A stretch of 64,000 nucleotides of DNA from Symbiodinium sp. CCMP2592 (lineage: Eukaryota; Sar; Dinophyceae; Suessiales; Symbiodiniaceae): NCBI GenBank assembly GCA_905221615.1, contig CAJNDT010004868.1:248001-312000 (forward strand), in the 5' to 3' direction. The translations under genes were made by a program, and so were the position numbers. The notes beneath the pieces are model-generated. The model made no database searches. It saw only the letters and a program-made list of their open reading frames with translations, and was not told the origin of the DNA. Of this stretch, positions 1 through 50,609 are shown piece by piece (the stretch's first letter is position 1; the number at the start of each line of letters is the position of its first letter).

Positions 1-44
1 CAGCAAGTGGCGCCGGTATCTGGTTTGTTCAACTCTCTGAACAG

Positions 45-75
45 GTACTTCGCTCTGAAGCAGATGACAAAGCAG
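45..75 (+). CDS. AGC kinase exon: subdomain II, ATP-binding lysine
   Basis: After the acceptor ending at 44 (GAACAG) the frame reads YFALKQMTK. This matches the beta-3 strand motif in which the lysine (codon 58-60) anchors ATP phosphates. The glycine-rich loop must lie left of the window. The 3' limit is uncertain because CAAAG at about 70 and a GA donor at about 76 both fit; the frame then meets a stop at about 112. The motif is short, and the assignment rests mainly on the following exons continuing the same fold. Confidence 0.55.
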
Positions 76-635
76 AGGCGCAGACACAGACTTCGCAACA
101 TTTCGATAGCTTAAGGCTTCGGAGTGGCTCTGTTCCGAAGACTCATTTGCAGCTTTGCGGCCGTACCCTCATTCCTACGGGGTTGAGGGATTCTGCAGAC
201 TCAATGCTGTCGTCTCTGTGCAGGCATGCGAAGAAGAATATCAAGAAGGGCGTGTACAACGAGCCCATAGCTCGGATTCTCTTGCTTAAGTTCGACAGCA
301 TAAAGACTGTACAGCGATAGTTGTCGGTTGTACGTAGGCATCAGCGCGAGAAGCTGGCCAGCAAAGTGTAGATCTGCATTCAAGATACATAGTGATGTGT
401 TATGACTGACGCTACCAACACAAAACCGTTGGCTAACTGACCAGCCAGCTAACAATCGTAAGCTTTGCACTTTCCTGAGCGAAAGCCAAGAGGCATTTGT
501 TGTTCAAGCAGTGTTTTAGCCACCAAGCTTTGTCGCTAGTCAGTTGATGCACAACTGACTGGCCCGTCAAGCTGTTCGTGAAATGCTTGGACAGGCACAA
601 GAATCGCTTGTTTGATTCAGGTTAGTTGGTTGCCT

Positions 636-666
<31 letters not shown>

Positions 667-1317
667 GCACTCATGCACTGACTCACTGACTCACTGAACT
701 GAAAGAACGCGACTGCATGAACGACTGCCCGCAGCAGGCAGGCAGGTAGGCAGGCAGTAAATTCGTCATCCACTCAGGTTGCTTTACGACCTATGCTAGC
801 CGTAGCATGGCTATCCAGCTAGAGTACGCTGCTTCAGACAAGGACAAGGAAGAACAAGCCACTTTGGCCAGTCGCGCGACGGGTCTATGGGTCTGCGAGC
901 AAACCACCAACCAGACAAATGGCTGCAAGTGGAGCAGTACATCTCCCTCACCTCTTCAGTCAGACTTCACGTTCCCTATACAATCATGCTGATGATGTTG
1001 GTGCGGCAGCACATTCTGCCGTGCAGGCGAGACGTTCTGGCACAGGCTCGGAACAGGCGTGCTGCTTCGTCTCCGTATGTATGTTTTCTTTGCGCCGGAA
1101 GCTGCAACAGCAGGCGTACTTCAGAAATCCAACACCTAGCCGAGCTGCAGCGAACTTGTGGATGAGTATCTTTCAGGCTACAGGCAACGGGGATCTCTGC
1201 TTCTTTCACGGGTCAGGAGGATGCTGTGTCGCTCTTACGACGCCAAAACGACCTGATTTCGAGAAGCCAGATGTGCTCTCTCGATACCTCATCCTGCCGT
1301 GGGCATCGTTTCTCCAG
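76..1317 (+). other. Kinase intron with ACTG microsatellite
   Basis: No convincing coding sequence was seen. At 634-701 there is a degenerate ACTG tetranucleotide run. Several open frames overlap between 800 and 1340 in all phases, but none shows a recognisable family or a coding-like bias, so I treat the stretch as intron. Confidence 0.45.
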
Positions 1318-1397
1318 CCTGGGCTCCCGAGAAGCTCGTAGAAGCGCTGGCAACGCTTGATGGCAGGTGGTTCGTGGAGCTCTTCGCCACTTTCCAG
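1318..1397 (+). CDS. AGC kinase exon: helix C to beta-4/5
   Basis: The acceptor TTTCTCCAG ends at 1317. The frame then reads EKLVEALATLDGRWFVELF followed by ATFQ, which is the helix-C/beta-4 region of ROCK/NDR-like AGC kinases; the helix-C glutamate should be within EKLVEAL. The exon ends CAG at 1397, followed by GACTC (a GA-type donor). Joining to 1477 keeps frame and gives the expected TFQ-DTNH wording. Confidence 0.75.
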
Positions 1398-1476
1398 GAC
1401 TCAACAACTCTTCTCTGGCTGGGTTGTCTTGAGAGTCGAAACCGACACCGCTAACCCGGAAAACTTACAGCTGCAG

Positions 1477-1514
1477 GACACCAACCACATCTACATGCTG
1501 ATGGAGTGCCTCTG
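1477..1514 (+). CDS. AGC kinase exon: hinge
   Basis: The acceptor GCTGCAG ends at 1476. The frame reads DTNHIYMLMECL, the beta-5/hinge stretch that precedes the GGDLF block. The best donor is GCAAGC at 1515 (GC type). With the simplest acceptor for the next exon (1995) the junction codon becomes TGA, so either the splice site is different or this copy carries a defect (see findings). Confidence 0.75.
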
Positions 1515-1995
1515 GCAAGCTTTGACAGAGCCGAAACACCTCTAGCCCCAAACCCGAAACGGACCCACATACCAAAACCATCATCTACAACCCAATCCTA
1601 AACCCTAAACCCACAGTCGTACTGGGTGCTGAACCCAGGGCTCGAGACAGGTGACTGCCATGTGCTGTCGGACATTCTTATAGGCTCAAGGGTTGTGCGT
1701 GCAAGTGTCTGACTGTCGCTGCAGGTACCGCTAGCCCTGCAAGAAGAACCATAATTCATACTTATAGCTGTTGCTGTCACATTGCTATACAGACTCATGT
1801 GTATTGACACTCTTCAGGACTGTGGGTTCTAGGCTCTAGACCCGACAACGTCATCATGTCGCCTGGAGAGCTCACTACAATCCCAAAATGCGGCAACTAA
1901 AGCCCGAAACAGCGAAATGCCTATATGCCCCAAACCCAGTAGCCAAACAGCCGGAGCCCTAAACGCTAAATGCCCTAAAGACTCGAGCCTGGCAG

Positions 1996-2059
1996 ATTTC
2001 TTCCCGGGGGCGACCTCTTCAAGTGGATCGAGGTGAAGAACCGCTTTTCTGCTGCCCTG
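1996..2059 (+). CDS. AGC kinase exon: GGDLF, helices D/E
   Basis: The frame reads FLPGGDLFKWIEVKNRFSAAL. PGGDL is the signature after the hinge in ROCK/NDR/MAST-like AGC kinases. CCCTAAA-like heptamers lie just before the acceptor (about 1956-1980), and TTTAAGGG-like ones follow the exon (2103-2142). The probable donor is GCCTGAG at 2060; the open frame ends at TGA 2063-2065. Confidence 0.75.
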
Positions 2060-2843
2060 GCCTGAGAAATAGACCATTATATACTTTATAGTAGTTTATA
2101 TCAGGGTTTAAGGAACCCTACTTTAAGGGTTCAGGGTTTAAGGGTGTGAGGGACATATTCTACGATAATCGGAGCAGTTCAGATAAAGCTTTGTTGTGGC
2201 AAGCCCGAGGAATGAAGCTGAAACCCCGAACTATTGATGATAGGATCACCCCACACCGGGGGTACTTCAGGGAGTCCGTGGCTGTCCCAGGAGCTCTGAA
2301 AAGCAACTCGAGTCTAAGCACCTCGTACCGTGGTTTCATAAATGGTTGCTGGGCCACCTTGCTCCTCTTCTGACCCCTTTGCAGCTGCAGCAAGGATGAG
2401 ACTCGGTTCTACATGGCAGAGCTCCTGGAGGCATCCGAGCCCAGGTTTGAAACCTGCAGTCCCAGAACCCTGAAGTCCGCAGTCGCTCAAAGCGTGTGAG
2501 GTGAAGGTTTAATTATTTGCAATCTTAGAAACCTTGACGTCGGGATTCCCCAGCCGAAGTCCCAGGATTCTCGAAGGCCACTCTAAACCTCGAAGTCAAA
2601 ACGACCTGAAGAAGATTAATTCCGAAGCCGTGACATTTGCTGCATGGCAATCGCTGTGTGGTGTGGGGTCTTGCGTCTCGGATGTCGGACAAGATAATTT
2701 CGAGAAACTGTGCAACGTTTCAAGGTTGGGAACCCCGTGTTTAAGGCCAGCATAGGGGCCATCGTTCCGGGTGGGGCATAGCATGGGTCTGGTTGGAGGC
2801 GATCGAGCGGGACCTCGCACTTCGGAGATAAATTTTCCGACAG

Positions 2844-2900
2844 CTTCCACAGGCGCTGGATGTGCTTCATCGCCATGGCTTCATCCACCGAGATGTGAAG
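2844..2900 (+). CDS. AGC kinase exon: catalytic loop HRDVK
   Basis: The frame reads LPQALDVLHRHGFIHRDVK. HRD holds the catalytic aspartate and the following lysine contacts phosphate, as in active Ser/Thr kinases. The GT donor GTGTGC starts at 2901 in phase 0. The next exon begins in phase 0 with FDNMIL, giving the expected HRDVK-x-DN. Acceptor choice (2834, 2843 or 2852) is open. A few residues between this and the GGDLF exon may lie in another tiny exon. Confidence 0.85.
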
Positions 2901-3280
2901 GTGTGCGATGGCGTGCGGGGTTGCACAGGATGTTGCTAAACAGACCAAGCCCTGCAATTTCGTGTAATCGACTCACATGTTATGAGCTTGAGGTCTGAGT
3001 TTGTAGATGTCAGGGTTCATTGGCGGTGCGCCAGCTTGCGTTGATTCATCTAAAATGCCGTGTCAACGCCCTTGGCCTCGTCTTCAGCCAGAAGGTGCGC
3101 CCTGCATGCTTGAAGACTCAGTGCCTGCTTGCACGCTGACGTTGAAAGGTTTGATTCTCGCAAAAATTGGACAGGGAGGCCTGGATTGGCTCAGTTTAGG
3201 CAGCAGCCGCCAACACGCACAGTAGCGAGAATAAAGCACGGCGGATCACATTACAAACGCTCTCGAAGCGAGGGTAAGCC

Positions 3281-4105
3281 ATGGATCGGCAGCCTCGGAT
3301 GTTTCGGATTGTCGCGAAAGACGACAATCGTCTAATCCTTGCTGTCGAATGGTGCCACAGCATTGGGTCCAAGTTGATCCACAGCAACCTGACTTGCCAC
3401 CGAAGCACTGACCATCCGTGGCCGAACGAAATAAGACCCATAGCGAGGGCACTGCGAATGGCGGACGACGACCTGCACTTATTCTATTGGTGCGAGGACG
3501 AAGACAAACAACTACTCGCGCTGGGTTTGGGAAGCAACAAGAAGAGGCAAACGCAAGCCATGCACGTTGCTTACGATCTATGTCGGTCCTGGTCCAAAGA
3601 TGGGAATCGCGCGGCTGCAGCAAAAACGATCTTTGTAGATCCAACAGAGTATTACTCGGATGACTATATTCCACCCGGCAGTGTTTCAGCAATGTCTAGC
3701 CCGCAGTTGTGCAACTATGCCGTAGCCTTGCACAAGTACAACCACCTCAACTCCGAAGCGGTTGAAGGCTTCTTCTTCAGTGTTTTGGAGGACGCGCGTC
3801 ATTTCTTCAACCGCGTGAAGTACGGCGAGTGGCCGGCAGCCCTGATCGCTGGGGGAAAACAAGTTGAAGCTTGGAGTTATAGCCGGAAAAACATGTTTGA
3901 TTCGGCGTGGAAGTGGTGGAGCGAGGCACGAGCAACAGGCTCCGCGGTTCCAGAGTCAGAGGAATCGCCACCTCCTTGTGATGCCATCAACTTGGAGGCA
4001 GATGCGGAAGGCATCGAGATGGTCAAATGGATCAAAGCTTCCTTCAACGGTCACTGGGTTCTGGAGCGCCGTGCTTTATTGCTTTTTTGGGGACCGGTTC
4101 CTTAA
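3281..4105 (+). CDS. Intronless nested protein, unknown function (upstream partner of ParB-like ORF)
   Basis: A 274-codon frame with an ATG start lies entirely inside the kinase intron 2901-5877, on the same strand. It has no introns and no telomere-like heptamers, unlike the host gene, so it looks like a retroposed or foreign insertion. The middle (LLALGLGSNKKRQTQAMHVA, about residues 77-96) resembles a short alpha/beta module I associate with multi-copy dinoflagellate proteins, but I cannot name it. It stops 10 nt before the ATG of the ParB-like frame at 4116, in another phase, so the two may be one gene split by a frameshift. At 3187-3196 a TTGGCTCA string could be a worn spliced-leader end. 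Confidence 0.6.
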   Translation: MDRQPRMFRIVAKDDNRLILAVEWCHSIGSKLIHSNLTCHRSTDHPWPNEIRPIARALRMADDDLHLFYWCEDEDKQLLALGLGSNKKRQTQAMHVAYDLCRSWSKDGNRAAAAKTIFVDPTEYYSDDYIPPGSVSAMSSPQLCNYAVALHKYNHLNSEAVEGFFFSVLEDARHFFNRVKYGEWPAALIAGGKQVEAWSYSRKNMFDSAWKWWSEARATGSAVPESEESPPPCDAINLEADAEGIEMVKWIKASFNGHWVLERRALLLFWGPVP

Positions 4106-4115
4106 AGGCACCATT

Positions 4116-4736
4116 ATGAATAATATGCCTCCTTTTACTCACCGGTTGCTTCAAAGCTCAGGTGAGGAAGACACCGTGGAGAGGGTGTTTGAAAAGATGC
4201 GCCGTGAAATCCAGTCCAACATCAAGCAAGAGGAAATCATCCTGACGGTTCCTGTGAGCGAGGTGCTCTTCACACAGAAACAGTGCCACCCTTATTTTAG
4301 GTGTGAGTGTGAACGCAGGCGGATGTCTTATGAGTGCCAGCACTGCCCGACAAGATCAGTGCAGAGGACCGCAGAGGAGATCGTTCGTGGCATGGATCCC
4401 TCAACCGAGAAATGGGCCATGCTTGAAGTTGTCATGTACCATGGGCGTTTCAGGTCCATTGACAACAGAAGGCTAGCCGCTTTTCGTCGTGCACAGGAAC
4501 TGCTGCGAGAGCAGGGTTCGGAGCGAGTAGTTCGGACAAGGATTCGGGTTTTTGTCTGGCGCGACGAGTTCTGGAGATTCTGGGACCACATGGACTACCG
4601 GAATGACCCTGATGGCGGGGAGAGCATTCATATCAAAGGTCACAAAAGGCGCAGAGAGGAAGGAGCCGAGGGTGGCAGATCCTTCTATGAAGGTGGCCGG
4701 CGGCCTCGTCGCAGCTGGCACCACCATGCCTATTAA
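4116..4736 (+). CDS. ParB-like (DNRRL) domain protein, nested in kinase intron
   Basis: From ATG 4116 the frame encodes about 206 residues. The core reads VPVSEVLFTQ, then a Cys-rich stretch (FRCECERRRMSYECQHC), then LEVVMYHGRFRSIDNRRLAA and RIRVFVWRDEF. The order VLFTQ - DP - LEV - DNRRL - (I/V)RV is what I recall of a ParB/sulfiredoxin-like nuclease-fold domain common in dinoflagellate gene models. The C-terminus is Arg/Gly-rich and basic. The open frame extends upstream to 3864, but that part overlaps the preceding ORF and looks non-coding. Role unknown; a nucleic-acid function is a guess from fold and basic tail. Confidence 0.6.
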   Translation: MNNMPPFTHRLLQSSGEEDTVERVFEKMRREIQSNIKQEEIILTVPVSEVLFTQKQCHPYFRCECERRRMSYECQHCPTRSVQRTAEEIVRGMDPSTEKWAMLEVVMYHGRFRSIDNRRLAAFRRAQELLREQGSERVVRTRIRVFVWRDEFWRFWDHMDYRNDPDGGESIHIKGHKRRREEGAEGGRSFYEGGRRPRRSWHHHAY

Positions 4737-4997
4737 TCAAGCCGCGAGGGGTTTCTTAGCATGGCCGCGTCTTGCATCTGTCCGTCGCACAGCTGTCTCT
4801 TTCAATGCTCGGAAACAAGCAGTTTGGAAGAGCATTTTTATTGAAGCACCGTTTGCAATGCTCGAAAGAAGCAGTCCGGAAGGGCATTGTTAGAGAAGAT
4901 GCGACGGCAATGCTGGTTCCAGCAGACCAGACTGGATACAGCGTTTCGTCTAACCGAGTTTACCCTGAGGTGGCAATTGTCGTGAATCTACTGGGAA

Positions 4998-5141
4998 CCG
5001 TATTGGGAAGCAGTGGAATTTCCAAAGGCGCAGCGCATCTGCTCGTGACCCGTATTGGGAAGCAGTGGAATTTCCAAAGGCACAGCGCATCTGCTCGTGA
5101 CCCGTATTGGGAAGCGGTGGAATTTCCAAAGGCGCAGTTTC
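4998..5141 (+). repeat. 52-bp tandem repeat, about 2.8 copies
   Basis: The string CCGTATTGGGAAGCAGTGGA starts at 4998, 5050 and 5102, giving a 52-bp period. Copies are almost identical, so the expansion is recent. It lies downstream of the nested ParB-like gene, still inside the kinase intron. Confidence 0.9.
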
Positions 5142-5877
5142 TCAATCACGGAGGCGTAGTACAGGCATGCGCTCTATTTGAAAAGATCGTTGCGTGCCTG
5201 AGTGCTTTGCAGTAAACTGCGAGCCTTCAAGCCGAAGCCCCAACTGCATGAACCCAACCACCCTGTAAACCCCAACACCTTTCATGTCAGGTCGAGCTCT
5301 TCAGCTTGCTCTCTCCCGGTGGATGGCAGACTCACCGATGAGCTTCGGGTTTAGTGACATTATATAGGGGAACCGTCGTCACAAGCAGCCAATGATGCAG
5401 GCCCTCGGAGCTATGAAGGCTGCCGCGGAAATCTGGAAACGTAACATATAGGGCATGGAATCCAAACAACTACCGAAGAATCATCGTCATTAGGCCGAAG
5501 ATGGCCCTTTGCAGAATCGTGGGGTGAAGAGAGAAGACGGAAAGCAAGCTCAAGTCAGGGTTTAGGGTTCTAGTGTTTAGGGCGGCTTGGTTGCAAATGT
5601 TCCGGTAACGCATATTTGTTCTTGGTTCATTGGCAGGCAGCACAGCTGGATGCATCCAATGCTTTGAGTCTCCCGAACTCCGTCAGCATGTTCCCTGGCT
5701 ACGCCCCCGTAGCGTTCACGACATGATCGAGGGTAGGTGGAGACGTTTGTCCCGTTTTTGCTTTTGTTTTTTCGCTCATCTCCCTTCCGGTCCCTCCCTC
5801 TCCCTCTCCAGACGCAAAATCTCCTGCAACATTCACTTCCTGTGGGTGTTGCCTATACTCCCAAGTTGAACGGCCAG
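5142..5877 (+). other. Rest of kinase intron
   Basis: Nothing beyond scattered CCCTAAA-like heptamers (5250-5275, 5565-5580) and a pyrimidine-rich tract (5760-5815) was seen. The tract may serve the acceptor at 5877. Confidence 0.4.
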
Positions 5878-7460: not shown

Positions 7461-9011
7461 TGCGTACGTGCATCCCTTCTCATACATACACTGACATCGT
7501 TTGGAATGTTTACAAACATTGTACGGGGTTCCTTTGCAGAATCTTCGCATCTTGTTGCATCGTTGTCTCATTCTCCACTGTATTGCACTAATGCTGAATT
7601 TGCATTGGTCCATGGATCCTGTCCGGTATCATGTTGCTTTCGGATGACGACGGTGAGGCTGTCTTATGTTGACTGCGATCATGCAGATTCGCCTCTGCCA
7701 CCCTCCAGTGAGCGAGTCCATGCCATTGCTGCCCTGTTCGGAAAGTATGTGGACCAGACAGGTTCCGAGGTTGAGGGTTCAGTTCTTTACAGTTTTCATC
7801 ACGGCAACATTCATAGCAAATTCAATATCTTCCCAAGGCAGGTCGGTTTGGGGAGGCCCTGCTCACCAGTAGCTAGGCAGAACCCCCTTGCACGCGACAG
7901 TTCGCCGAAACCCGAACGACAGACTTGTCTTCCTCATTTGCTCAGAAAAAGCAGTCCCATACAAGGCCTCTGCCGTGCCGAGCCCGTCGTCCATCCCCCA
8001 GCCTTTTCCGAAGTGAGGCCCTTTGTTTGGCTGGTTGGGGTCTTCAGACTTCTTATGTTCGGGGTGGTTGAAGACTCTCACAACAACATGTCGTCAGAAG
8101 GCTTAGGTTTACGGCTTTGAAGTGACCTCAGCCTTCCCTTTTAAGCACCCTCTGACAGATTCATGGCTGAGCTCTTTGTCCTCTGGCGATACACCCTAAA
8201 CCCTAAGCTCTAAGCCCAAACCCCTAGCCAGCGACCAAGGAGGACAAGGTCTCCTCCAAAGACGTGTCGCTAATGTCACCACCGAAAGGGCCTGGCAAAC
8301 CCAAATCTTGCCTGAAGCAAGGCCGGCATTGCTTCATTTATTCGTGTGGGTTCTATTTTCGTGCAAGAGGTGTTCTAAAGCGTTGTAAGGTTTATGGTTT
8401 AGGGTACAAGGCTTTGGGGTTTTGATGAGTGTTGGCACTTTTTCGCAGTTTCCATGTCATGTCGGCGGCTGCTACGACGCGTTATGGTCGTCGTCGCCTT
8501 TGTTGCTGACTGCGGCAACGGTGATCACAACTAGAAGTACTCATTTCCGATGACTTAACAAGGTACTGCTATGCTGGTACTGCCAATGCTTCTGCTGCTG
8601 CTGGCAATGCTGCTCCGACTGCAGCTGTTGGTACGAGCAGTGGCACTGTTAGTAGTGTTTAGAGTAGCTACTGCTGTGGTGCTGATGGTGGTGCCAATGA
8701 CGATGCGGATGAGGGCGAGGAATAGGTTGTGATGCTTGTTGATGATGATGACGATGCTGATGATGACGACGGATATGGTGATGGCAATGACGACGACGAT
8801 GCTGAAGGTTAAGATATTTGCTTTCCAGTGTTCATACGATTCTCCAGCACAGGGTTGATAGCACATAAGTGCGAGTGACCAGGTTGCATTTCGAGGATGA
8901 AGGCTTAGGGCTTGGGGAGTGCTGGAGGTTCCGTAAGATGGGATCACATATAGCTTGTCCAAACCCCAAACCCTAAACTAAACCCAAAACCCTAAACCTG
9001 AAGCCCCGTAG

Positions 9012-9087
9012 GCTTAAACAAGGCGCGGTCTTTCAGCTTGCTGCTTCAGGAGGCCCCAGCCCGAAGCGGCAGCAGATTGCGACACAG
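9012..9087 (+). CDS. AGC kinase exon: activation-segment insert
   Basis: The acceptor CCCCGTAG ends at 9011, immediately after a run of CCCTAAA heptamers (8964-9000). In the phase set by the DFG exon, the frame reads LKQGAVFQLAAS, then GGPSPKRQQIATQ. It ends in phase 0 before a GC donor (GCGGGA, 9088). Joined to the next exon it gives KRQQIATQ-VGTVYYMAPEV, which parallels the basic insert and activation-loop end of NDR-like kinases. Found by phase logic, not by a strong motif. Confidence 0.6.
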
Positions 9088-10342: not shown

Positions 10343-10375
<33 letters not shown>

Positions 10376-17287: not shown

Positions 17288-17536
17288 CGGTTTAGGGTTT
17301 AGGGGTTTAGGGGTTTAGGGTTTAGGGTTTAGGGTTTGGGGGTTTGGGGGTTTAGGGGTGTAGGGTTTAGGGTTTGGGGGTTTGGGGGTTTAGGGGTTTA
17401 GGGTTTAGGGGTTTAGGGTTTAGGGGTTTAGGGTTTGGGGGTTTAGGGGTTTAGGGTTTAGGGGTTTAGGGGGGTTTAGGGGTTTAGGGTTTAGGGGTTT
17501 AGGGTTTGGGGGTTTAGGGGTTTAGGGTTTAGGGTC
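17288..17536 (+). repeat. Interstitial telomere-like array (TTTAGGG variants)
   Basis: About 250 bp of head-to-tail TTTAGGG, TTTAGGGG and TTTGGGGG units. The mix of 7- and 8-nt units and ordinary sequence on both sides show an internal array, not a chromosome end. It is the longest of the many heptamer tracts in the window. Confidence 0.9.
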
Positions 17537-17837: not shown

Positions 17838-18635
17838 ATGCGCGACACCGAGGAGTCTGGGGAGCTTGGAGGTAAGGCAGTGCCACACGAGCCGCCTCAC
17901 CTCTGCTGCCCAATTACTCATGCCTTGTACGAAGATCCGGTCGTGGCTATGTCTGGAAACACCTACGAACGGGCCGCCATCGTGGCCTACTGGGATCAAC
18001 AGGAGAACCTTTGTGATCCTCTGACAAATGTGCCTTTGCAGAATGCCACCTTGATCCCCAACTGGGACAAGCGGCGAGAGGTCCAAAGCTTCCTGGCCAA
18101 GCACCCAGAGCTCAAAGAGCAGAGGGAGAGGGACGCAGCGGAGCTTACGCCACGGCCGCTGAGGAGAGGGGACTCCTCCATGTCAAGGCTGACGATGTCC
18201 CAGTCCGTGCGAGTCGAGCGGACGGAGGAAGTGGGATTGTTCTCCCTCCAGTTCCCGGTAGAGATGCCCACAAGCTTGCAGTATCGTATTCAGGAAGATG
18301 AGTTCCGAAGCTTGGTGCAGAAGCTGAACGAGAAGCTGCAAGGAACTGAGCCCAGCTTGCTAAGGAAGCTGGCAACTACAGGAGCTTTTGCACTTCTCTG
18401 TGCGGGACTTACTATGAGGAGGCCTCGAAGTTGCATCGTTTCCGGTACATCCGCCCTCTCCTTCCTGTACCTCTGCCGCATGCCAGAAGGCAACTCGACG
18501 GCAGCATGCCGGAAAGAAGCGGAGCGATTCTTTCGGGAAGAGTTCGTGCCGTTTTTCCAAGTCCGAGGTGTCCAGGTACAGACTGCCAACGTCTCGAGTG
18601 TTTGCTACGCTTCAGAGCTTCTGCTGTCGTGCTAA
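17838..18635 (+). CDS. U-box protein fused to Erf4/Golgin-A7-like domain
   Basis: An intronless frame of 265 residues from ATG 17838. Residues about 20-90 form a U-box: HLCCPITHALYEDPVVAMSG, NTYERAAIVAYW, then CDPLTNVPL and LIPNWDKRREVQSFL. This has the E2-binding hydrophobics of U-box E3 ubiquitin ligases and lacks RING cysteines. After a Ser/Arg-rich linker, residues about 130-245 read FSLQFPVEM..., RIQEDEFRSLVQKLNEKL and later ERFFREEFVPFFQVRGV. These match the plan of Erf4/GOLGA7 (F.FP.E.., I....F......N), the accessory subunit of protein palmitoyltransferases. Lack of introns suggests a retrogene. The second domain is less certain than the first. Confidence 0.85.
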   Translation: MRDTEESGELGGKAVPHEPPHLCCPITHALYEDPVVAMSGNTYERAAIVAYWDQQENLCDPLTNVPLQNATLIPNWDKRREVQSFLAKHPELKEQRERDAAELTPRPLRRGDSSMSRLTMSQSVRVERTEEVGLFSLQFPVEMPTSLQYRIQEDEFRSLVQKLNEKLQGTEPSLLRKLATTGAFALLCAGLTMRRPRSCIVSGTSALSFLYLCRMPEGNSTAACRKEAERFFREEFVPFFQVRGVQVQTANVSSVCYASELLLSC

Positions 18636-22670: not shown

Positions 22671-22795
22671 AGCCCTAGATCTTCTTGGTAGATCCCTAAA
22701 CCGTAATGGCCGCAAGGCCCCAAAACCCTAGGGTTTAGGATTTAGGGCTATAGATCCCTGAACCCTAAACCCTAAACCTCTTGGTAAGCCGGCAG

Positions 22796-22840: not shown

Positions 22841-23111
22841 GCGCTCTGCCAACACAGAGGGCCCGGATCCCGAGCTGGTTGGTGTTTGGGGTTTAGGGTT
22901 CAGGGTTTGGGATCGCGATTAGGGTTTAGGGTTTGGTGTGTAAGGCTTGGGTCCTTAACAACAACGCATAGACCCTACAACCCCAACTTTAGACCCTTCA
23001 CAACCCTGTAACTTCTATTTAAACGGTATATACAGCTTGTGCAAAGAACTTATAAACAAAAACCCACAAACACGATGTGTACCCCAATCCCTCACCTCAG
23101 CCTTTTACCAG

Positions 23112-35189: not shown

Positions 35190-35605
35190 TAGCGAGTCGG
35201 TTGGGAGTGGTGGGTTGGGTGGGGTACGGAGTGGGAGAGGGTTGGAGAGGGTTGGGAGAGGGTCGGGAGAAGGTTGGGTTGGGAGGGGTTGGGAGAGGGT
35301 TGGGAGAGGGTGGGAGAGGGTTGGGAGAGGGTTGGGAGAGGGTTGGGAAAGGGTTGGGAGAGGGGGTTGGGAGGGGGTTGGGTGGGTTGGGAGTGGGTTG
35401 GGAGGGTGGTTTGGGAGTGGGTTGGGAGAGGGTTGGAGAGGGTTGGGAGAGAGTTGGGAGAGGGGGTTGGGAGAGGGTTGGGAGAGGGTTGGGAGAGGGT
35501 TGGGAGAGGGTTGGGAAAGGGTTGGGAGAGGGGGTTGGGAGGGGGTTGGGTGGGTTGGGAGTGGGTTGGGAGGGTTGGGAGTGGGGTTGGGAGTGGGTTG
35601 GCACC
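35190..35605 (+). repeat. G-rich minisatellite (GGGTTGGGAGA, 11 bp)
   Basis: About 400 bp of GGGTTGGGAGAGG-type units, all G on the plus strand, with a higher-order duplication: the two halves near 35280-35400 and 35460-35560 are alike. It could form G-quadruplexes. It makes long spurious open frames in five phases. Confidence 0.95.
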
Positions 35606-40589: not shown

Positions 40590-40676
40590 AGGTTCAGACA
40601 ATCTGGTCTGTTGCATGGTTGGTCTGCCGGCCAGAGGCAAGACCTTCATCGCCCGGAAGCTATGTCAGCACCTTTG
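40590..40676 (+). CDS. PFKFB-like: 6-phosphofructo-2-kinase exon: Walker A
   Basis: The frame reads DNLVCCMVGLPARGKTFIAR, then KLCQHL. GLPARGKT is the diagnostic P-loop of 6-phosphofructo-2-kinase, which makes fructose-2,6-bisphosphate, the cytosolic switch between glycolysis and gluconeogenesis. The exon ends in phase 2 at 40676 before a GC donor. Joining to 41480 in phase gives QHL-C-PCKVFNVGEY, the expected continuation. The 5' limit is uncertain because the frame is open upstream to about 40480. Confidence 0.9.
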
Positions 40677-41479
40677 GCGGAAGTTCGAGCTTCGGTACAC
40701 GCCATGGGACTAATCTTTCTATCTCAGATACAGATACAGGTATAGGTTCGTAGATGGAGATTGGCACACATACGCTCTTGAAACGTGCCGAAACACAGCA
40801 TGACGATACAAAAACATTGGTTAGTGAGTCAGTCGATATGTTTGGCTCTTTGCTGGTTCTGTCTTTGTCGGTCTAAATGGTACCGAAAGTTCTTTGCAAC
40901 TGTGCTCTGGGCTGGAGGCCAATGACTTTCGTCCCAGCATGAACGAAGACCTCGAAGCATGCAGTCGGATCTTTGGGCATAGATGACGATGAAGCTGCTG
41001 TACGTTATTTTTGATTACATACCTCTATAGATATACATACATGTATATAGTGAATAGTGTTGCATATTTTGCCTGGCGATAGCGAGGTACATCAGACGCT
41101 CAGCTGCATGAAGACTTCGGGCTATGTTGGATCTTGTCTTGCTGCTGGATAGCTTGGACAGGTTGCGGGGTTGAAGGTTTTGGATCCAGGGTTTATAGGA
41201 GGCTGTCAGATGTTGGCTGCTGCCAGATCCTTGCAAAACCCTGCCGTGACAGCGTCGTTCTTCAGTCTCCGCTTTTCGCGGAAAGAACCGAGCTAGTGCC
41301 TGTGAAGCCCATCCTGCATGCTAGAATGCCGGAGCCACCGCCGCCGACATCAACACCACCGCCATTGCTAAGTGATACCGTTGCTACACTGTCAAAACTT
41401 GTGAGTTCACGTTGTGTGGAGATCCTATGCCCCAAAGGCTGAGCCTCTGAGCCACAACTTCAGGTTTCTTCTATGGCAG
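40677..41479 (+). other. PFK-2 intron
   Basis: A GC-AG intron with little heptamer content. A proline-rich open stretch (41290-41440) with no match may be intronic. Confidence 0.5.
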
Positions 41480-41518: not shown

Positions 41519-41923
41519 GAAGCTTTGCTGCGCTACCTCCGGTTTGTTCAGGGTTTTAGGGTTCAGGGTTTGGGTTTAGTTGTTTGTGCCTCTTCCTCCA
41601 CGTCAGCTCCTAAACAATTCAGATTGCCGCGAATGAGTTTCAAGTGGTTCGAACCATGCTGTTCTTGCCTTTTTTGTGTTGTGCGTCCACCGTCGTTAAG
41701 TCAGTTCTTCGCCGGGGGTCCAAACCCTAAACCCCGAACCAACCTTTCCGCCCTTGAAACAAGGAATATACCCCGCACTATCCAGACCACAAGGTAGCCA
41801 GGCCTTCATACTACAATGTAAGGCATGTTCCGTAATTCAGGGGTATTGCGCTCTTTTGGTACCCCTCAAACGGCAAACTCTAAACCCAACCCCAAAGGCT
41901 TGTGGATGGCAAGTTCCAGCCAG

Positions 41924-41979
41924 CTTCCTTCTTCGACGAGTCCAACGAAGAAGCCCGCGCACTACGCGCCTTTGTGGAT
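41924..41979 (+). CDS. PFKFB-like: PFK-2 exon: FFDxxNEEA
   Basis: The frame reads ASFFDESNEEARALRAFVD, the PFK-2 'FFdp.Neea...R..va..al' block. C-rich heptamers (41877-41895) lie before it and G-rich ones (42030-42090) after. Ending at GAT (with the junction G shared) and joining to the micro-exon 42326-42339 gives FVD-ALEL, as in the family. Confidence 0.9.
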
Positions 41980-42325
41980 GGATTTGGTGTTCAGGGCTTA
42001 TATAAGGCTTGTGGTTTCGGTTAAGGGCTCATCGCGCTTGGGATTAAAGTTTGTAGGGTTTCTCGGGTTCGGGCTTTATAGGGCTTGGGTTGGTGACTGT
42101 TCCAAGCAGGGTTCCATGTGAGTGATGGAGGCTAATCTTGAATTGTCTTCATGCCCCTGGAGCTATTTACAAACCGGCCAAACAGAAAGCCTTGAACTCT
42201 AATTTACAACCCTAAACATTAAACCCTGAACCGAGATAGCCTCAAACTCCATGCCCGGCCCGAACCTTTACTCCTGATCCCTGACATCTCGACGCACTCG
42301 CTTGACCTTTTCACCCTCAGCCCAG

Positions 42326-42339: not shown

Positions 42340-42351
42340 GTAGGGTTGACT

Positions 42352-42443: not shown

Positions 42444-43758
42444 TTGAAGTTGAGCGTCAGAACCCCCGAGCCTCAAAGCCCACCCAGAGAACAGAAACCG
42501 GAACTTTCGACGACAAGTCGTAAAGCCTCATCCCTCAAATCCCGAAACCCAGTCCCCGAAACCGTTGAGGCTGGAAGTGAGCCGGCACATAGATCCGTAC
42601 AGAAATCCCAAACCCTGTAAACCCTACAGCTCTAAAGCCCTGCAGACCCTAAGCCTTAGACCACCTACCGCCCTAGAGACCCGCAAGCTTAAACTTGAAA
42701 CCCTTGATCTATGAAAAGAGTCCTAAACTCTAAAAAGGGTATATCATCCCTGATGGAAACCTTGCAGCAACCCTTGGAGCCCCCCCCCCCCACCGAACAT
42801 ACGAAAGCCGTCGAAATCTTTCCTTGGAGGTCGCCAGGCTTCGGAGCATGCCGTGGTGGAGTCTGGGACTTTCTTTTTGTACTTTGGGCTTAGGGTTTTT
42901 ATATTGTTTAGGGTTTCAGGTTTTAGGGAGCAGGGTTTAGGGGTTAGGGATTTAGGGGTAGTCTATATTAAGGTGTTGTGAGCAGCTTATACAAGCATCT
43001 TTTTGACGATATTGAAAGGAGTTTACAAGAAGTTTATTGATCCTGCAAGGGATCGAAAAGTCGATAAGGGATTTAGCCTGTAGGTTGCTGTGGCAGCAAG
43101 CACCCAGGACTTGTGCGAATGGATGAGCGGCCAAAGCCCTAAGAAAAGGAAGCTTTCCTCGTGCCCTGGCTGCTTTGATCTTACAGGGAAGGTGCGAAGG
43201 CTTAATTACAATTAAGGATTCCGCTACGTGCGGCAATTTAAGGTCTATGCTTAGGTCCGCCCTTCAGTGAAACTCAAACATGTCTTGTGGGGTTTCGGCT
43301 TTGGGCTGAGGCACCTGTAATAGCAATTTGGGCAATAGTGCTAATTAATAGTAGTAATTACAGTTCTGAGCCTGGATTAGAGATTTGGGAATTGGTGCAG
43401 TTGTGCTTCCTTATCACAGTGCAGGAGCCAGAAGAGTGGTCGTTCGACTTCTTGCTGCTGGCTTTGTACCCCAAACCCCTACACTCCCTAAACTCGTGAG
43501 CCCCTAGCCCTAAACTCTAAACCCCTGCACCCTTAAGCCCCAAACCCTTTTGGAGCTGTGTGGCTCGAACCAGGCACGACCTTGTGGAGGACAAGTGTGA
43601 CGACCTCAGCTTATAGGAGTTTCGGGTTTGGATTTGAATGAGGGTTTAGGTGTTTAGGGTTTAGGGGTTCATGGCTTACGGGTTCGGGGTTTGGGGGTTT
43701 TGGAAGTTGGGATAGCCTAATACCCTAAGCCCGAAGCCGCCAGATGCTGTAGAGGCAG

Positions 43759-43827
43759 CAGCTATATCTCCGGGGAGTTTGGCGCCGTGGCGATCTATGA
43801 TGCCACGAACTCCACAAAGGAGTGCAG
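43759..43827 (+). CDS. PFKFB-like: PFK-2 exon: DATNST
   Basis: The acceptor GAGGCAG ends at 43758. The frame reads SYISGEFGAVAIYDATNSTK, then EC(R). (V/A)x(I/F)(Y/F)DATN(S/T)T is the Walker-B-like signature of PFK-2. The exact 3' end is uncertain (GGAGC after TGCAG, or GCGCAT at about 43840). Confidence 0.9.
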
Positions 43828-43839
43828 GGAGCTTTCAGG

Positions 43840-44721
43840 GCGCATAGGTTCGGGTTTACCTTTCCTAACCCACAAATCCTTATAAACCCTAAACCATAGC
43901 ACTTTAAACTTTGTACGCCCTACAGGAGCGTTTCCACTAAACCGAGCCTGCGACGAGGCCTCCGAGACGCGAAGAGATAGAGGCATAATTTATGAGTTCC
44001 CGCCGTGTTTCTCCCGCAAGGAATATGCCTGGCATTCTGGTTTCTGACCTCCTCATACTAGCCTGTAGTTGAATAGTCCCGAAGCTGTGCGGGGACAGCC
44101 AAGAAGAGCAACCAGCAACGCTGCGTTTATCAAGTCAAAGTTGTTGCTTGTAGAAGCATTGACCTGTGAGCAGTAGGATGCATACTACAAGGATACCCCT
44201 CGTTGTAAGAAGTGCCATGTACAAACACATGCAAAGACATGCCCTGCCAGCGCAAACCGCCAGACCACAGATGGATCCCGAGAAGCCATGTCTTCAACTA
44301 CACATGCAAGTAACTCTCGCAGTCCATCCAATCACAGCAGCATTCATAGCTTGACTTGTCATACGCTAATCCCAAGCCCTGACACCCAAACCCCAATTCC
44401 AGCCATCAGCTGCCTCCCGGAAGGAGAGGCGGCGATGGCTCGTAGAACGTCTTCAGGACCTAGGCGCGAAGGCCCGCGACTCTGAAGCTTAGGGTTCTTG
44501 CGGTGGTTGGTCGGGGGGCGATCTCCGTGGCTCTGTCGCTTCATGTGGCCCTCGGCTCTCGGATGTCGTCGGCGACGCCGACAACAGAAAAGAGCGTGTT
44601 CAGAACCTTTAAAGCGGTCAAGAGGATGACCTGCGTCCGAGAAGAAGCATCTTCGGACCCATTAACAGAGCGCTAGCAGCGGCAACGGCACCAAGAGAAA
44701 CTCCCAGCAAAACAACACATG

Positions 44722-44765
<44 letters not shown>

Positions 44766-45255: not shown

Positions 45256-45319
45256 AGTGCAACAGGCCGGCAACCTAAGAACCCGAATAACTGGCAATCA
45301 ATCATTATAATATCGACAT

Positions 45320-45325
45320 ATACAC

Positions 45326-45406
<81 letters not shown>

Positions 45407-45545
45407 CATATACAGATACATACGGGCACGCACACACACGCATAAATTGATAGATAACTACTAACTAGGGAATTACATGAGCAAATATATACAAGTATAT
45501 ATATATATATATACACACACACACATTCTCTCTCTCTCTCTCCCT
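45320..45545. repeat. (TA)n and (CT)n microsatellites in PFK-2 intron
   Basis: (TA)n at 45330-45360, (CT)n at 45363-45402, then (TA)n and (CT)n again at 45497-45545: a duplicated composite microsatellite. Confidence 0.9.
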
Positions 45546-45766
45546 CTCGGCCGTTGAGACAGTAGGGAACCTTTGTAAAGGTCCGAACCGAGTCCGGAGT
45601 GTTGGGAAACGCTTAGGGAGTTCTGTTTAGGGTTGAGGGTTGAAAGGCCGGTTTAGGGGTTGGGGGGGATCAAGGGATGTCGGGTTTTGGGTTTGGGAAG
45701 TGCTGTGATCTAGAGCACAGGCCCTAAACCAAATCCTTTTTCCTATAAGCCGTGACCATGTTTCAG

Positions 45767-45826
45767 GTCTTGAGCGCGGAAGAGGCAGGTGCAGACTTCA
45801 TGAAGCGAATCGGCTTCTACAACGAG
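45767..45826 (+). CDS. PFKFB-like: PFK-2 exon: AEEAxxDFxxRI
   Basis: The acceptor ATGTTTCAG ends at 45766. The frame reads VLSAEEAGADFMKRIGFYNE, matching 'pdY....eeA..DF..RI..Ye' near the end of the kinase domain. The GT donor is at 45827. In phase with the next exon it gives FYNE-VYETL. TTTAGG/GGGTTT heptamers follow (45895-45940). Confidence 0.9.
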
Positions 45827-46403
45827 GTGGGGCTTGAAGATTGTTGTGTGTAGAGATGTGTAGAGTCTCCGAGGGTCTTCAAGGTTTTGGAGTTCAGGCT
45901 TAGGGTTTGGAGTTTACGGGTTTACGGTTTGAGTTTAGGACAAGATAGTTGTCAGGGTTTGAGGTTGCGTTGATATTAGGTGTCAGCAGTTTCCGAACCA
46001 AGATCCTGTTTCGAAGGTTCAGCACCCTTTCCAACAAGCAGTTTACAGTGTCCACAGTCGGGACCTCAAAAGGCACCACATTCCTGAAGGACGAGATGGG
46101 GACCTCAGAACCTTTTATGGTTCAAATTCCAAATTCATAACATGACCCTCACTTTTCAGTGCCATTTGGCCCCCAAGGCTTTAGAAGAAGCTGCAGGTGG
46201 CCTGTCAGACCTGAAGCCTCTAGATCCTTTCTTGACGTAACCGAGACAACAGCCATAAACGGCGACAAGCACTTAAGTGTTGAAAGTACGGGGCGCAGGC
46301 TTGCACTTAGGGTTTAAGGTTTGATGTACGCCGAACAGAAGCAGACCTTCGTACTTCTGCATGCTCGAAGCTTGGCCCGTGTCTCTTTCTGCCACCACGG
46401 CAG

Positions 46404-46465
46404 GTGTACGAGACGCTCCAGAGCTGCACTCAAGACCCCAAGAGCTGGAAACCTCTGCGAAACTC
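46404..46465 (+). CDS. PFKFB-like: PFK-2 exon: VYETL
   Basis: The acceptor CACGGCAG ends at 46403. The frame reads VYETLQSCTQDPKSWKPL, in phase with the previous exon (YNE-VYETL). The 3' limit is uncertain: GC donors near 46420 and 46459 are possible, and the frame stops at about 46470. Confidence 0.7.
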
Positions 46466-47330
46466 TGGCTAGGTCTGAGGTTGAGGATAGAAACCTTACT
46501 TGAGGCTTAAAAGGTAAGAGGAGTAGCATGTAGTACTCCACAACACTGGTGAACAGCAGAAAGCTCTTGAAAGCATTCTAAAAGCAGTATAGAGAGTCCA
46601 AAGACACCGTGTATAAACTACCCCACACCCTCCCAGGCTCTCGGAAACCGAATATAGCTGGATCAAATTCGTAGATGGCGGGAGAGAGCCTTGGCAGCAG
46701 CTTTTCTTTTGGGAGCAGGGTTGTGGTTTCATGGTGCTTGATAAGTTCTACAGGTTTTTTCAAGGGCTATTTTGAGCTTCGTAGGTGTTAAGTATAGACG
46801 GGTCGTATGGTGGGTTTGCGAGGCTTTAACGTCCAGAAGAGAATTATGGAGTGTTGGGGTTGAGGGTTAGGGTTTTGGGTGTGCAGGGCTTTTCTGGATT
46901 TCGGATGTTTACGTGTTTGGGGCTATGGGGTTTGAAGGTTAGAGGGGTTGGGCAGCGCTGTAGGGCATTTTGGGATTCTGAAAATCGTTTTCCGATCAGT
47001 ACGACAGTCAATACGTCAAAGGCTGTTGTCTAGAGCTAGGATTGCTGTAGATCTGCTTCTGGGTTTTGGGCCGTCATGTCGATAAACGTGTGCTGCAGAC
47101 TGCCAAACCTCCATTGGCCATGCTTTCAGATGTGCAATCCCAAAGCATAGCACGCAAATTTATTGAATCGCCTGCATGCAGCAACGCCGTCAGCAGCAAT
47201 TCGAAGGCTAACAGAGGGTCCGCAAGCCCAATTGAAGAGCTTTCACCGAAAGCTCTACTGCCAGCTTGAAAGCTTCATGTTGCTTCGCACTCACCGATAC
47301 GAAACCGTCCATACTTGGGATGGATGACAG

Positions 47331-47422
47331 TTGCTGACAATGGCTGCCATCAGTTGTCTCTCGTATATGAGGAGATTTCCCTCCATAATATGCGCGGCTT
47401 TTTGGCATCGCGGATTGCGCAG
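47331..47422 (+). CDS. PFKFB-like: PFK-2/FBPase-2 exon: linker to phosphatase domain
   Basis: The frame reads ADNGCHQLSLVYEEISLHNM, then RGFLASRIAQ. This corresponds to '(K)L.D.G........N...Gyl.SRI..yL', the segment just before the histidine-phosphatase motif. Edges are approximate. G-rich TTTAGGG heptamers follow (47480-47510). Confidence 0.7.
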
Positions 47423-48325
47423 CTACCTGTGCAGCAAGATTTCGTTTATCTGGGATTGGGAGGGCTTTGCTTAGTTTGGGTACTTTGTGTCGCTTGGTTT
47501 AGGGTTTAGGATATGAGCAGAATAGCATCGTCGTACTTATGAATCATGCAATGTTGCTGTGCTTGCGATCTGAGGTTCCTGCTGAACCTGCACGGGCAAC
47601 GAAGACCTATCTTCCTGTCCCGGCACGGCCAGTCTGAGTACAACCGACTGGGCAAGATAGGCTGCTTGGACCGATGCATGGGGCGAGGGTGGGGATGGTG
47701 ACATTGACGAGGGTGAGGATGGGTATGATGGTGAGCGATAGGATGACATGTTGATACGGGTGCTGGTAATTGTTCTTTGTGAAAACAGGCTTTGGCTTTG
47801 GGTTTCCGGTTTCCCGGACATTGCAATTTGGCAGGATGGGGTCAAAGGTAGCTTTCCGGTTATGTTGTGCTCTGCATACCATGAGGCCTTTGTCACTGAC
47901 AAGCGGAAAGACCGAGACTAAGAATCATGCCAGACACTGAGATGGCACTGCCAAGCTGTCTAATAAGTGGTCTCGGAAGACTAGCTGCGCATCCATGCCA
48001 GGATGCGGCTGACACCAAGCCGCTACAACAGGTTTTTGCGAAGTTTTGCCTGGAACATCTCCGAAGCCAAAGTAACTTCGAGCATGTGTCTCACTGGCCC
48101 TTAGACCCTGCAACCCTAACAAAGCCCTGAAGCCCCTGAACCCTAAAATCATTTATGTCAGACACCAGCACCAAGAAGGTGTGGGCACAGTCACTCATTT
48201 TGCAAAGACGTCTTCCCCACCTGGCCCTTATCATGTACATGAAGAACCCCTACACAGGACCTTCGCAAAAACGTCACGAGGCGCTTCTGAAGCCTTTATG
48301 AATGACAGAAATCAGAAGCATGCAG

Positions 48326-48366
48326 GTGGGGACTCCGTGTTGACATCGCACGGGGAGGAGAGCTCG
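48326..48366 (+). CDS. PFKFB-like: Candidate FBPase-2 exon: HGE motif lacking Arg
   Basis: The acceptor AGCATGCAG and a strong GT donor (GTGAGG, 48367) bound a frame reading GDSVLTSHGEES. It sits where the family has LTRHGES, whose histidine is the phospho-acceptor. Here Ser replaces the Arg before His and one Glu is extra. The same frame is open upstream to 48148 (IIYVRHQHQEG), an alternative RH-containing candidate. The motif assignment is tentative. Confidence 0.4.
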
Positions 48367-48837
48367 TGAGGGCTAGGTTTGGGTTCGGGGTTTGGGATCC
48401 CCGCGAGACTTAAATTCCACACCGAAGGCCCAAAGCTTAAACCTTACACTTTGCACCCGGCAGCGATGAAGCCTCAAATGTGAAACCGACACCCTCCGAT
48501 AATTCGAAAGGTAACGAGAGCAGCAATCGGAAGAAGAAACGCAGCCAGAGTGGGAGTCGGAGTAGCAGCACCGACAGCAATAGCAGCAGCAGTAGCTGTA
48601 GCCGTAGCAGTTGCAGTAGCAGAAGTAAGGAGTCGTGATATGGAGTAACATGGCGGTAGTAGTTGACATCATCGTCATTGTCTTCGGCGTGGTGGTAGCA
48701 TTGGTGTACTGTAACTATTTCTCTATATACATCTACGTCCATGTTTTTTGGGGTCTATACTGGGACCTTATGTATCGCTATTCATCTCTTTAAACCTTTA
48801 CATTAAGTTGACTCCAGTGATGCTGGGCACTGCGCAG

Positions 48838-48882
48838 GAGTACGCCACCGCCCTTGCCGACTGGGTGGACAAAGAGGCCAGA
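48838..48882 (+). CDS. PFKFB-like: FBPase-2 exon: LSxxGxxYAxxLxxW helix
   Basis: The acceptor ACTGCGCAG ends at 48837. The frame reads EYATALADWVDKEAR, the helix after 'LS.rG' in histidine-phosphatase domains. The GT donor GTCGTT at 48883, phase 0, matches the phase-0 start of the next exon. Confidence 0.75.
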
Positions 48883-49259
48883 GTCGTTAAAGTTTCAGTG
48901 TGTCGACCTTGCAGTGTTTTGGGACTTCATGTGCATGACGTTGCTGCATTTCGGATGCAAGTGGCTTGGGACTTATTGGTGTAAAGATGATGCGGCTGCC
49001 GGGCTCGGCAATCAGCCGGACGGAAGGTACAGATAGATGCACCAATCCTAAACCCTTAAATTCCGAAATTCTCAACTGGCCTTAAACCCTGAACCTCAGG
49101 GCCCTAAACTCTAAAACTTTGAAGCCCTAAAGTCTAAAAGCCTTTGAATTGAAGATAGACACCCTAAACCCTACACCCTCAAACCTTACACCCTTAAGCC
49201 CGAAGCCGTTAAGCCCATAAGACCTAAACCTGAAACCCAAAGCCCTGTAAGCCCCAGAG

Positions 49260-49364
49260 GTGAAGATAGATGCTACCGGAAAGCCCCGGCCTGCGCGGCT
49301 CTGGACTTCGTCGCTGAAGCGCACGAGGCTCACAGCCAGACATATCCGCGGCCTGCCTGCGAAG
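49260..49364 (+). CDS. PFKFB-like: FBPase-2 exon: WTSxLKRTxxTA
   Basis: The acceptor GCCCCAGAG ends at 49259, directly after a long CCCTAAA-like tract. The frame reads VKIDATGKPRPARLWTSSLK, then RTRLTARHIRGLPAK. '(V)WTS.L.RT..TA' is the second core signature of fructose-2,6-bisphosphatase, with a conserved substrate-binding Arg. The GT donor is at 49365, with TTTTAG/GGGTTT heptamers after. Downstream phosphatase blocks (catalytic Glu, second His) were not found in the window. Confidence 0.9.
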
Positions 49365-50609
49365 GTTTTTTGGGTTCCAGGATCTATGGTTTTAGTGTTT
49401 AGGACTCTTGGGTTTCGGGGGTTTGGTATAGGGGCTTCAGACTTAGAGTGCTTACTGTGAAGGCCCGGGGGGGGGGGGGGGTTTCCGACTTTAGGAGCAT
49501 CTAGAGAGTCCAAGTAAGGAGTTCTCTGACTACTGGCTTTGATAAGGGTTGGGTGTTGGGTTTACGGCCGTTAATTAAGGTTTGTGCTGCGAATGATAAG
49601 GTCCGGGACATGACAATTGCATCAGGTTGAGAAGCACAAGAAGGTCCAGTCATAGCAGTGCGGCAAATTTCGGGTCTTGGCCGTAAGTCCATTGAGTGGG
49701 AGTCCACTGGTGCACCTCACGGTCATGTAGGCACATTTCGGGACGGAAAGCGCTCTTTCAGGTCGTACCCTGAACCCTAAACTCTTCATGCACTCGTGGA
49801 ATGGTAGCTCCTACAGTGACAGCAGGTCTATCTTGTCTTGGCAGCAGCAGCTTCGGTCTTTCAACCCCGATGTCGCTGCAAAACTCCATAAGCCTAAACC
49901 CAGCCCCTCTGCTGGCAAAAATAGTTGTTTGCAGGTCTATGCTAGCGGTCCCTTACTCAAACCGGAAGAAAGAACAGCAAACTGGCTTAGGATCCATGTT
50001 AGCTTCCCTTGTTTTCTGAAAATCCCATATAGCGGATTTGAGGACACGACAGTCTGACGTTGCCGTCTGGCACGCAGTGGGCTCCTTGCATGGACGTGGA
50101 GTCGAAATCTTCGTATTAGCACGGCTGGACTGGGAACTGACATTATGATCAAAACACGGATATTCACTAGTCATGCTAGTTAACAGTATTACGAACCTTG
50201 ATAGCACTTGTAGTAGCAATTGGCAACGACGAGATCGAAAGCAATGGCATTAACAGAAACGATACCAATAACCACCGTAGTCATCACTACACAGTTGAAT
50301 ACTGGTGTTTGAATAACGAAAGATGAGCAGTACAAATGTCAAAAATCAACAATATCAATAGCAAGATACGAGCAGTGTTAATATGTACGATGAAAAACTA
50401 GCAAGGTCAATGCTACTAGTGATCTCATGGGTTTTTTCTACGAGGAAAAGCATGGCAACATGTATTTTGGTGGCAGCATCTGGACATTGCAGACGCCAAG
50501 GTGAGGGTTTAGTATTTAGGGATTCGAGTGTGATGTGGGGTTTGAGGTTTCAGATTCCGCTTGGCAGAGAAGCTTCATCAAATGTGGAGACAGGTCCCCC
50601 AGTGATCCC
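49365..50609. other. Downstream of last PFK-2 exon found
   Basis: G-homopolymer at 49469-49481, heptamers, then AT-rich sequence from 50150 to 50400. The next exon of the FBPase-2 domain was not recognised here. Confidence 0.4.

Follow-up and report, generated by a model that had tools for sequence, protein, structure and literature searches.

Telomere-like heptamer arrays flank exons with a strong orientation bias in the dinoflagellate Symbiodinium sp. CCMP2592

Several described systems resemble an arrangement found in a 64,000-nucleotide stretch of Symbiodinium sp. CCMP2592 (here called the window; positions 248,001-312,000 of contig CAJNDT010004868.1), in which exons tend to be preceded by CCCTAAA-like heptamers (C-type) and followed by TTTAGGG-like heptamers (G-type). 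G-triplet intronic splicing enhancers, established near donors in other systems, consist of brief runs of G that lack a C-type counterpart upstream of the exon, and the arrays described here likewise place G runs just downstream of donors. In mammals, short interstitial telomeric repeats have been inserted at double-strand breaks (PMC2246262, accessible portion), and like these, the arrays in Symbiodinium are short, diverged, and internal. Unlike them, however, their orientation follows the exon, in C-exon-G pairs, a polarity that does not appear in the accessible portions of PMC2246262, PMC8537989, and PMC7215372. As tandem telomere-repeat copies at internal sites, the arrays are interstitial telomeric sequences, and their repeat is of the dinoflagellate type, given as (TTTAGGG)n in the open part of PMC11453091, which may not be the telomere repeat of this species. 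Among dinoflagellates, the introners and noncanonical introns of Amoebophrya also have complementary ends, consisting, according to the open part of PMC7789003, of 8- to 20-nt inverted repeats within one intron together with direct repeats, whereas the arrays reported here are generic heptamer arrays, not intron specific and centered on exons. In Symbiodiniaceae, including Effrenium voratum, introner genes carry inverted-repeat elements, in introns of about 3 to 6% of genes, and neither telomere-like arrays nor exon polarity is mentioned in the accessible portions of the two reports (PMC11114475 and PMC10522408). No earlier description of telomere-like arrays flanking exons was found among open PubMed Central titles and the opening lines of abstracts, a set that does not include the 2023 Current Biology paper on introners.

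The genome searched comprised 1.098 Gb in 5,383 contigs, with a GC content of about 50%. Exact rotations of the heptamers occurred 462 times (G-type) and 370 times (C-type) in the window, whereas 20 first-order Markov sequences averaged 37 and 25, and a triple telomere-type repeat had 73,488 forward and 75,164 reverse matches genome-wide (overlapping ones included). The initial annotation of the window had claimed that C-type heptamers crowd the intron end before an exon and G-type heptamers the intron start after it, and all 16 of the intervals that it cited carried heptamers in the claimed orientation. C-type words were present in 8/8 intervals placed before exons (3 to 14 each, with no G-type word), and G-type words in 8/8 placed after exons (1 to 19 each), one of which, 2103-2142, also held a single C-type word. 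Genome-wide, at a spacing of 100 to 130 nt, CCCTAAACCC followed by GGGTTTAGGG was matched 30,554 times, compared with 9,660 matches for the opposite order; the reversed controls had 3 and 1. Thus, the arrangement is real and recurs throughout the genome, as a strong bias of about 3 to 1 rather than a rule, while the mechanisms first proposed for it found no support, as described below. The C-exon-G unit is its own reverse complement, with the G-rich strand pointing away from the exon on both strands. At a spacing of 270 to 300, the same word pair was counted 44,064 times in C-to-G order (a C array, then a G array) versus 18,659 times in the opposite order, these being word pairs rather than independent loci and inflated by long arrays at that distance. 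Since the C-to-G excess persists there, pattern counts alone are no proof of specificity for exon size; they were rejected for that purpose, and a test of gaps between nearest clusters was used instead.

The gap test considered clusters of at least two heptamers in the window and in 20 stretches of 10 kb each, taken at round coordinates on 17 contigs and picked before their sequence was seen; this sample is blind but not a random draw, its contigs coming from among those with telomere-repeat or spliced-leader pattern matches. (The dinoflagellate spliced leader was matched exactly 217 and 212 times on the two strands genome-wide, with none for the reversed control, which marks the organism as a dinoflagellate.) The median gap was 165 bp for C-to-G versus 441 bp for G-to-C, and gaps longer than 400 bp made up 11/70 of the former and 37/69 of the latter (p=2.7e-6). 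The contrast was also evident in the blind stretches alone (4/41 versus 23/41, p=1.3e-5), in which C-to-G gaps are exon-sized and G-to-C gaps are intron-sized, while the window alone gave 7/29 versus 14/28 (p=0.057) and a nonsignificant rank test (p=0.31). Moreover, among intervals of 60 to 250 bp, the 92 C-to-G intervals had a higher GC content than the 59 G-to-C intervals (0.526 versus 0.480, p=1.5e-5) and a higher codon score (p=1.4e-4). Twenty C-to-G intervals drawn from the genome-wide pattern matches had a mean GC content of 0.544, a value with no G-to-C counterpart set. An exon finder based on codon usage, with 28 kinesin exons as its training set, was rejected, as it called about as many exons in reversed as in real sequence, and a Pfam search of all six frames of one locus (L024) gave no match.

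The window contains a PFKFB gene with six recognized exons on the plus strand, four of which, starting at 40598, 41898, 43759, and 47575, rest on database matches. The exon at 40598-40694 (VGLPARGKT; Pfam 6PF2K, E=1.2e-4) shows no heptamer in the 200 nt flanking it on each side. The exon at 41898-41986 (FFDESNEEARALR), recognized first by resemblance to PFKFB sequence and then found inside the 6PF2K match of the joined exon peptides (E=4.4e-15; PFKFB2 structure, E=5e-17), lies between a C-type cluster at 41880-41888, 10 nt upstream of the acceptor, and a G-type cluster at 42054-42062, downstream of the donor. At 43759-43821 (DATNSTKE; 6PF2K, E=3.1e-6), a C-type word precedes the acceptor (43722-43728, with a G array at 43624-43701 further upstream) and a G-type word follows the donor (43852-43858, with a C array at 43883-43943 next). 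A C-type cluster (45722-45730) and a G-type cluster (45900-45961) likewise enclose 45750-45826 (SAEEAGADFMKRIGFYNE), presumably a PFKFB exon, which has no database match and which we assign from resemblance to known PFKFB sequence. In the remaining probable exon, 49258-49364 (LWTSSLKRTRLTARHI; GT donor), resemblance to PFKFB sequence is joined by a weak Pfam His_Phos_1 match (E=0.05), and a large C-type array upstream of the acceptor (49047-49239) is accompanied by a G-type cluster downstream of the donor (49397-49564). The exon at 47575-47660 (RFLLNLHGQRRPIFLSRHGQSEYNRLGKI; GC donor), which matches PFKFB structures, departs from the pattern, as a G-type cluster (47496-47510) lies 64 nt before it; the interval 47480-47510 had been described as following an exon and is a counterexample unless an unseen exon precedes it. 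Overall, the nearest heptamers fit the claimed polarity at 8/9 informative edges (exon edges with a heptamer within 200 nt), this cluster being the exception. Six of these nine edges belong to exons first recognized by such resemblance to PFKFB sequence (6/6 fit), and the other three split 2:1.

To this gene we added two homology-mapped beta-tubulin genes located elsewhere (L073 and L074), whose junctions were set by keeping the protein reading continuous and demanding AG acceptors and whose last exon ends are approximate, together with exon coordinates from genome-wide Pfam matches to kinesin (89) and tubulin (51). Flanks were retrieved for 48 of these 140 matches (44 kinesin, 4 tubulin), the edges of which are profile-match edges rather than splice sites; profile searches also returned 8 CCT and 11 TBC matches, few of them single exons, and 14 dynein matches. 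The resulting set of 70 exons omits L069 and L071, which repeat exons of L074 and L073, respectively, and are retained in a 54-exon set used for GGG and CCC counts. In the three mapped genes, exons were found inside 10/23 C-to-G versus 3/23 G-to-C intervals (one-sided Fisher p=0.024; p=0.0066 with labels shuffled within genes) and inside 4/11 C-to-C and 1/11 G-to-G intervals. For the 70-exon set, the heptamer nearest to an edge, at up to 200 nt, fit the claim at 37/55 edges (p=0.0072), with 21 C-type and 10 G-type on the acceptor side and 16 G-type and 8 C-type on the donor side. The two beta-tubulin genes contributed 18/28 fitting edges, neither gene being significant alone, and the 46 kinesin and tubulin family exons alone gave 11/18 (p=0.24). 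Half of the exons (35/70) are free of heptamers in both 200-nt flanks, and 16/36 kinesin loci (L033-L068) lack any exact heptamer. At edges with at least three heptamers in 200 bp, the fit was 22/39, not significant, probably because this count takes in arrays located in mid-intron or belonging to the opposite end of a short intron. Counts over the first 150 and last 150 positions of 21 introns gave 18 consistent edges and 10 inconsistent ones (p=0.09), weaker than the nearest-cluster measure; four exon ends (three in PFKFB, one in L074) differ by 1 base between these two analyses.

The sizes of neighboring arrays are also related. Array size is correlated across C-to-G intervals of 71 to 400 bp (rho=0.36, n=103, p=2e-4), a relation absent from G-to-C intervals (rho=-0.16, n=73), and the blind stretches alone gave the same picture (C-to-G, rho=0.36, n=67, p=0.003; G-to-C, rho=-0.10, n=45). 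In the mapped genes, arrays on the two sides of an exon gave rho=0.51 (n=24, p=0.011), and those at the two ends of an intron gave rho=-0.23 (n=21). In addition, neighboring C-to-G arrays were more complementary than swapped pairs (mean percentile 0.612 for 126 pairs; 0.558 ± 0.028 for 103 purity-matched pairs), neighboring G-to-C arrays were not (0.477 for 113 pairs; 0.465 for 73 purity-matched pairs), and the nearest complementary array was more often the one across a short C-to-G interval.

We tentatively favor, well short of conviction, an origin by telomere-type addition at breaks or exposed ends, tied to intron gain or growth and followed by a splicing filter. Breaks or exposed ends in the DNA at intron gain or enlargement would receive telomeric heptamers, for which the mammalian repeats inserted at double-strand breaks (PMC2246262) offer a precedent. 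Healing by telomerase would turn a left end into exon-TTTAGGG and a right end into CCCTAAA-exon; once the two were rejoined, directly or through filler DNA, the resulting intron would start with G repeats (5' end) and finish with C repeats (3' end). Each exon, surrounded by interstitial telomeric repeats, would then resemble an end capped on both sides. Splicing would filter the survivors: by direct reading, TTTAGGG repeats hold AG and GT, and hence may present a decoy acceptor, TTTAG/G (slash, splice point), while CCCTAAA repeats hold no AG, GT, GC, or GA and would therefore form a harmless AG-free tract before the acceptor. The strand-symmetric polarity, the gap sizes, and the position of exons within C-to-G intervals support this reading, as do the mapped introns with an array at one end only, in which either end occurs, and the turnover between the tubulin paralogs. 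L073 and L074 encode proteins 99% identical over a 576-nt overlap, with 60/98 fourfold sites different; one intron position (158.0) is shared exactly, a second pair (141.1, on one reading, and 142.1) lies one codon apart, and the overlap otherwise contains different introns and different arrays, indicating that arrays and introns turn over. L074 includes a 17-nt microexon, and intron turnover between the two genes is strong. The bias is equal on the two sides of exons (21:10 and 16:8), which speaks for a cause at the DNA level, as predicted, and the lack of size correlation or special complementarity within introns is expected if their two ends were extended independently.

Several observations weigh against such an origin. 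Independent break repair does not predict a correlation of array size across exons, and about a third of the informative edges (18/55) have the opposite orientation. The splice site and the start of an array are usually separated by tens of nucleotides (nearest C-type, 4 to 102 nt; nearest G-type, 18 to 104 nt). One intron of L073 (approximately 4480 to 4870) contains two large arrays, first C-type and next G-type, separated by about 100 bp in which there is a small C cluster and no tubulin exon, so that the polarity is reversed for an intron while the C-to-G spacing is the usual one. Finally, exons without heptamers also show a G-before-C asymmetry, which points to splicing signals.

Nearly as likely as our preferred origin is that splicing alone filtered arrays that land either way, for reasons of their own, one orientation being tolerated or useful near splice sites; neither pairing nor a particular origin would then be required. 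The C-type array would be an AG-free, C/A-rich tract before the acceptor, and the G-type array a putative G-triplet intronic enhancer after the donor. The dinucleotide content of the two repeats described above is in keeping with such a filter, as is the ending of C arrays near acceptors, the nearest distance being 27 nt or less in 9/15 cases. At exons without heptamers, GGG exceeded CCC after donors in 18/24 (p=0.011), CCC exceeded GGG before acceptors in 17/25 (p=0.054), and base skew at 37 such exons gave p=0.079. A filter of this kind, however, predicts a stronger bias at acceptors than at donors, in disagreement with the equal ratios found, and does not predict a size correlation confined to C-to-G intervals; with heptamers masked, the difference in skew over the full set of 70 exons was not significant (p=0.11).

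Unlikely is pairing of C and G arrays across the exon in pre-mRNA, which would hold the exon in a loop and so mark it or favor its skipping and the formation of circular RNA. Array sizes correlated across exon-like intervals, the complementarity of neighboring C-to-G arrays, and the frequent location of the nearest complementary array across a short C-to-G interval speak for it. Duplex energies across exons, on the other hand, were not significantly better than those of swaps, either for 24 exons (-43.1 versus -40.5, p=0.26) or for 46 family exons (-44.4 versus -42.4, p=0.14), and pairing by itself leaves the C-first order unexplained.

The descent of introns from introners with telomere-like inverted ends was suggested in the initial annotation; such an origin, from introners or from miniature inverted-repeat transposons (MITEs) with telomere-like terminal inverted repeats, appears improbable. 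Dinoflagellates do gain introns by introners, according to the open part of PMC11453091, and foldback elements were seen by eye in these introns. One such MITE-like element, with ends near CTACTTAGAGGATCATGGGACTTAGTAAGT, occurs in both introns around one kinesin exon (L038, C5162:2353001-2354400), and stretches similar to it by eye are present at two further loci (L044 and L048). In a comparison covering 320 kb, however, 68/75 G-to-C intervals and 105/112 C-to-G intervals of 60 to 400 bp had no second copy; therefore, no sequence common to many introns is apparent, nor is any high-copy family of introners that end in telomere-like repeats, although rare or low-copy families could be missed. 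Nor did we find element-specific terminal inverted repeats, the two ends of one intron being no more alike than ends of different introns (the G-to-C percentiles relative to swaps, given above). AG/G acceptors, found at 18/18 tubulin junctions (AG having been required when placing most of them) and 2/6 PFKFB junctions, could reflect a target-site duplication or the splice consensus.

The remaining mechanism, also from the initial annotation, is that G-type 5' ends and C-type 3' ends pair to define the intron and compensate for weak GC/GA donors; some introns do carry both ends (L073 introns 3 to 5), and paired intron ends are on record for Amoebophrya (PMC7789003, open part), but this is the least probable of the explanations, as one array or both are missing from many of the 21 introns, their own ends pair no better than chance partners (mean, -38.9 kcal/mol versus -40.5 for swapped ends from different genes; p=0.71), array sizes are uncorrelated within introns, and no link to GC/GA donors was found. 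Regarding the last point, G heptamers lay within 200 nt of 7/10 GT and 5/13 GC/GA donors (24 exons, one donor ambiguous). In PFKFB, 5/6 donors are GT as placed, while in the beta-tubulin genes, which use GA, GC, and GT, the GA and GC donors are common.

Elsewhere in the window, further clusters on the plus strand flank putative exons. A C-type cluster at 1932-1979 precedes, and G-type words with one C-type word among them (2103-2140) follow, an exon at 1981-2060 (GGDLFKWIEVKNRFSAALA; edges approximate) that, by its motif, putatively encodes part of a protein kinase; a later kinase exon at approximately 2826-2900 had a weak match to Pfam PF00069, below the cutoff (E=0.054). Another C-type cluster, at 8961-8998, stands before a candidate exon that had been proposed at 9012. 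A C-type cluster at 22761-22778 and a G-type cluster at 22889-22935 enclose an exon (GLNFLAGMGLLAL...) that we presume, from sequence resemblance, to be TBC/RabGAP-like, PDB searches of the region having given no TBC match. On the plus strand between 15 and 30 kb, the PDB search matched only a U-box exon (17892-18104), upstream of which is a long degenerate TTTAGGG/TTTAGGGG array (17289-17535). Pfam gave no match on the plus strand between 30 and 40 kb, a region that includes a 370-bp G-rich array of TGGGAGAGGGT units (35232-35601), a candidate quadruplex former, and an Rfam scan gave no match at gathering scores. Adjoining large simple-repeat arrays, GGGCACAA and then TACATA/ATATATAC, occupy 50610-51562. 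On the minus strand, a 388-amino-acid open frame at 52370-53536 (VINLERQNQRRETTVQLL...) resembles family 25 glycosyltransferases, and long open frames at 55312-60572 also suggest genes on the opposite strand there. Outside the window, one contig (C5051) held three full-length Cpn60/TCP1 matches with open frames of 542 to 597 amino acids, which may be retrogenes or indicate a contaminant contig.

In its strongest form, the origin that we favor would have introns born or enlarged at breaks extended with telomere repeats, with exons as telomere-flanked islands and telomerase as a source of introns, a proposal that we regard as speculative and rather doubtful. The polarity over exon-sized intervals, 3 to 1 genome-wide, ties telomere repeats to gene structure in a specific, as yet unexplained way in a group known to gain introns, and it could reveal how introns arise or are recognized. 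Two questions thereby become testable, namely, the source of new introns and the manner of splicing with GA and GC donors. Moreover, the polarity provides a sequence cue for exons in genomes where gene prediction is poor.

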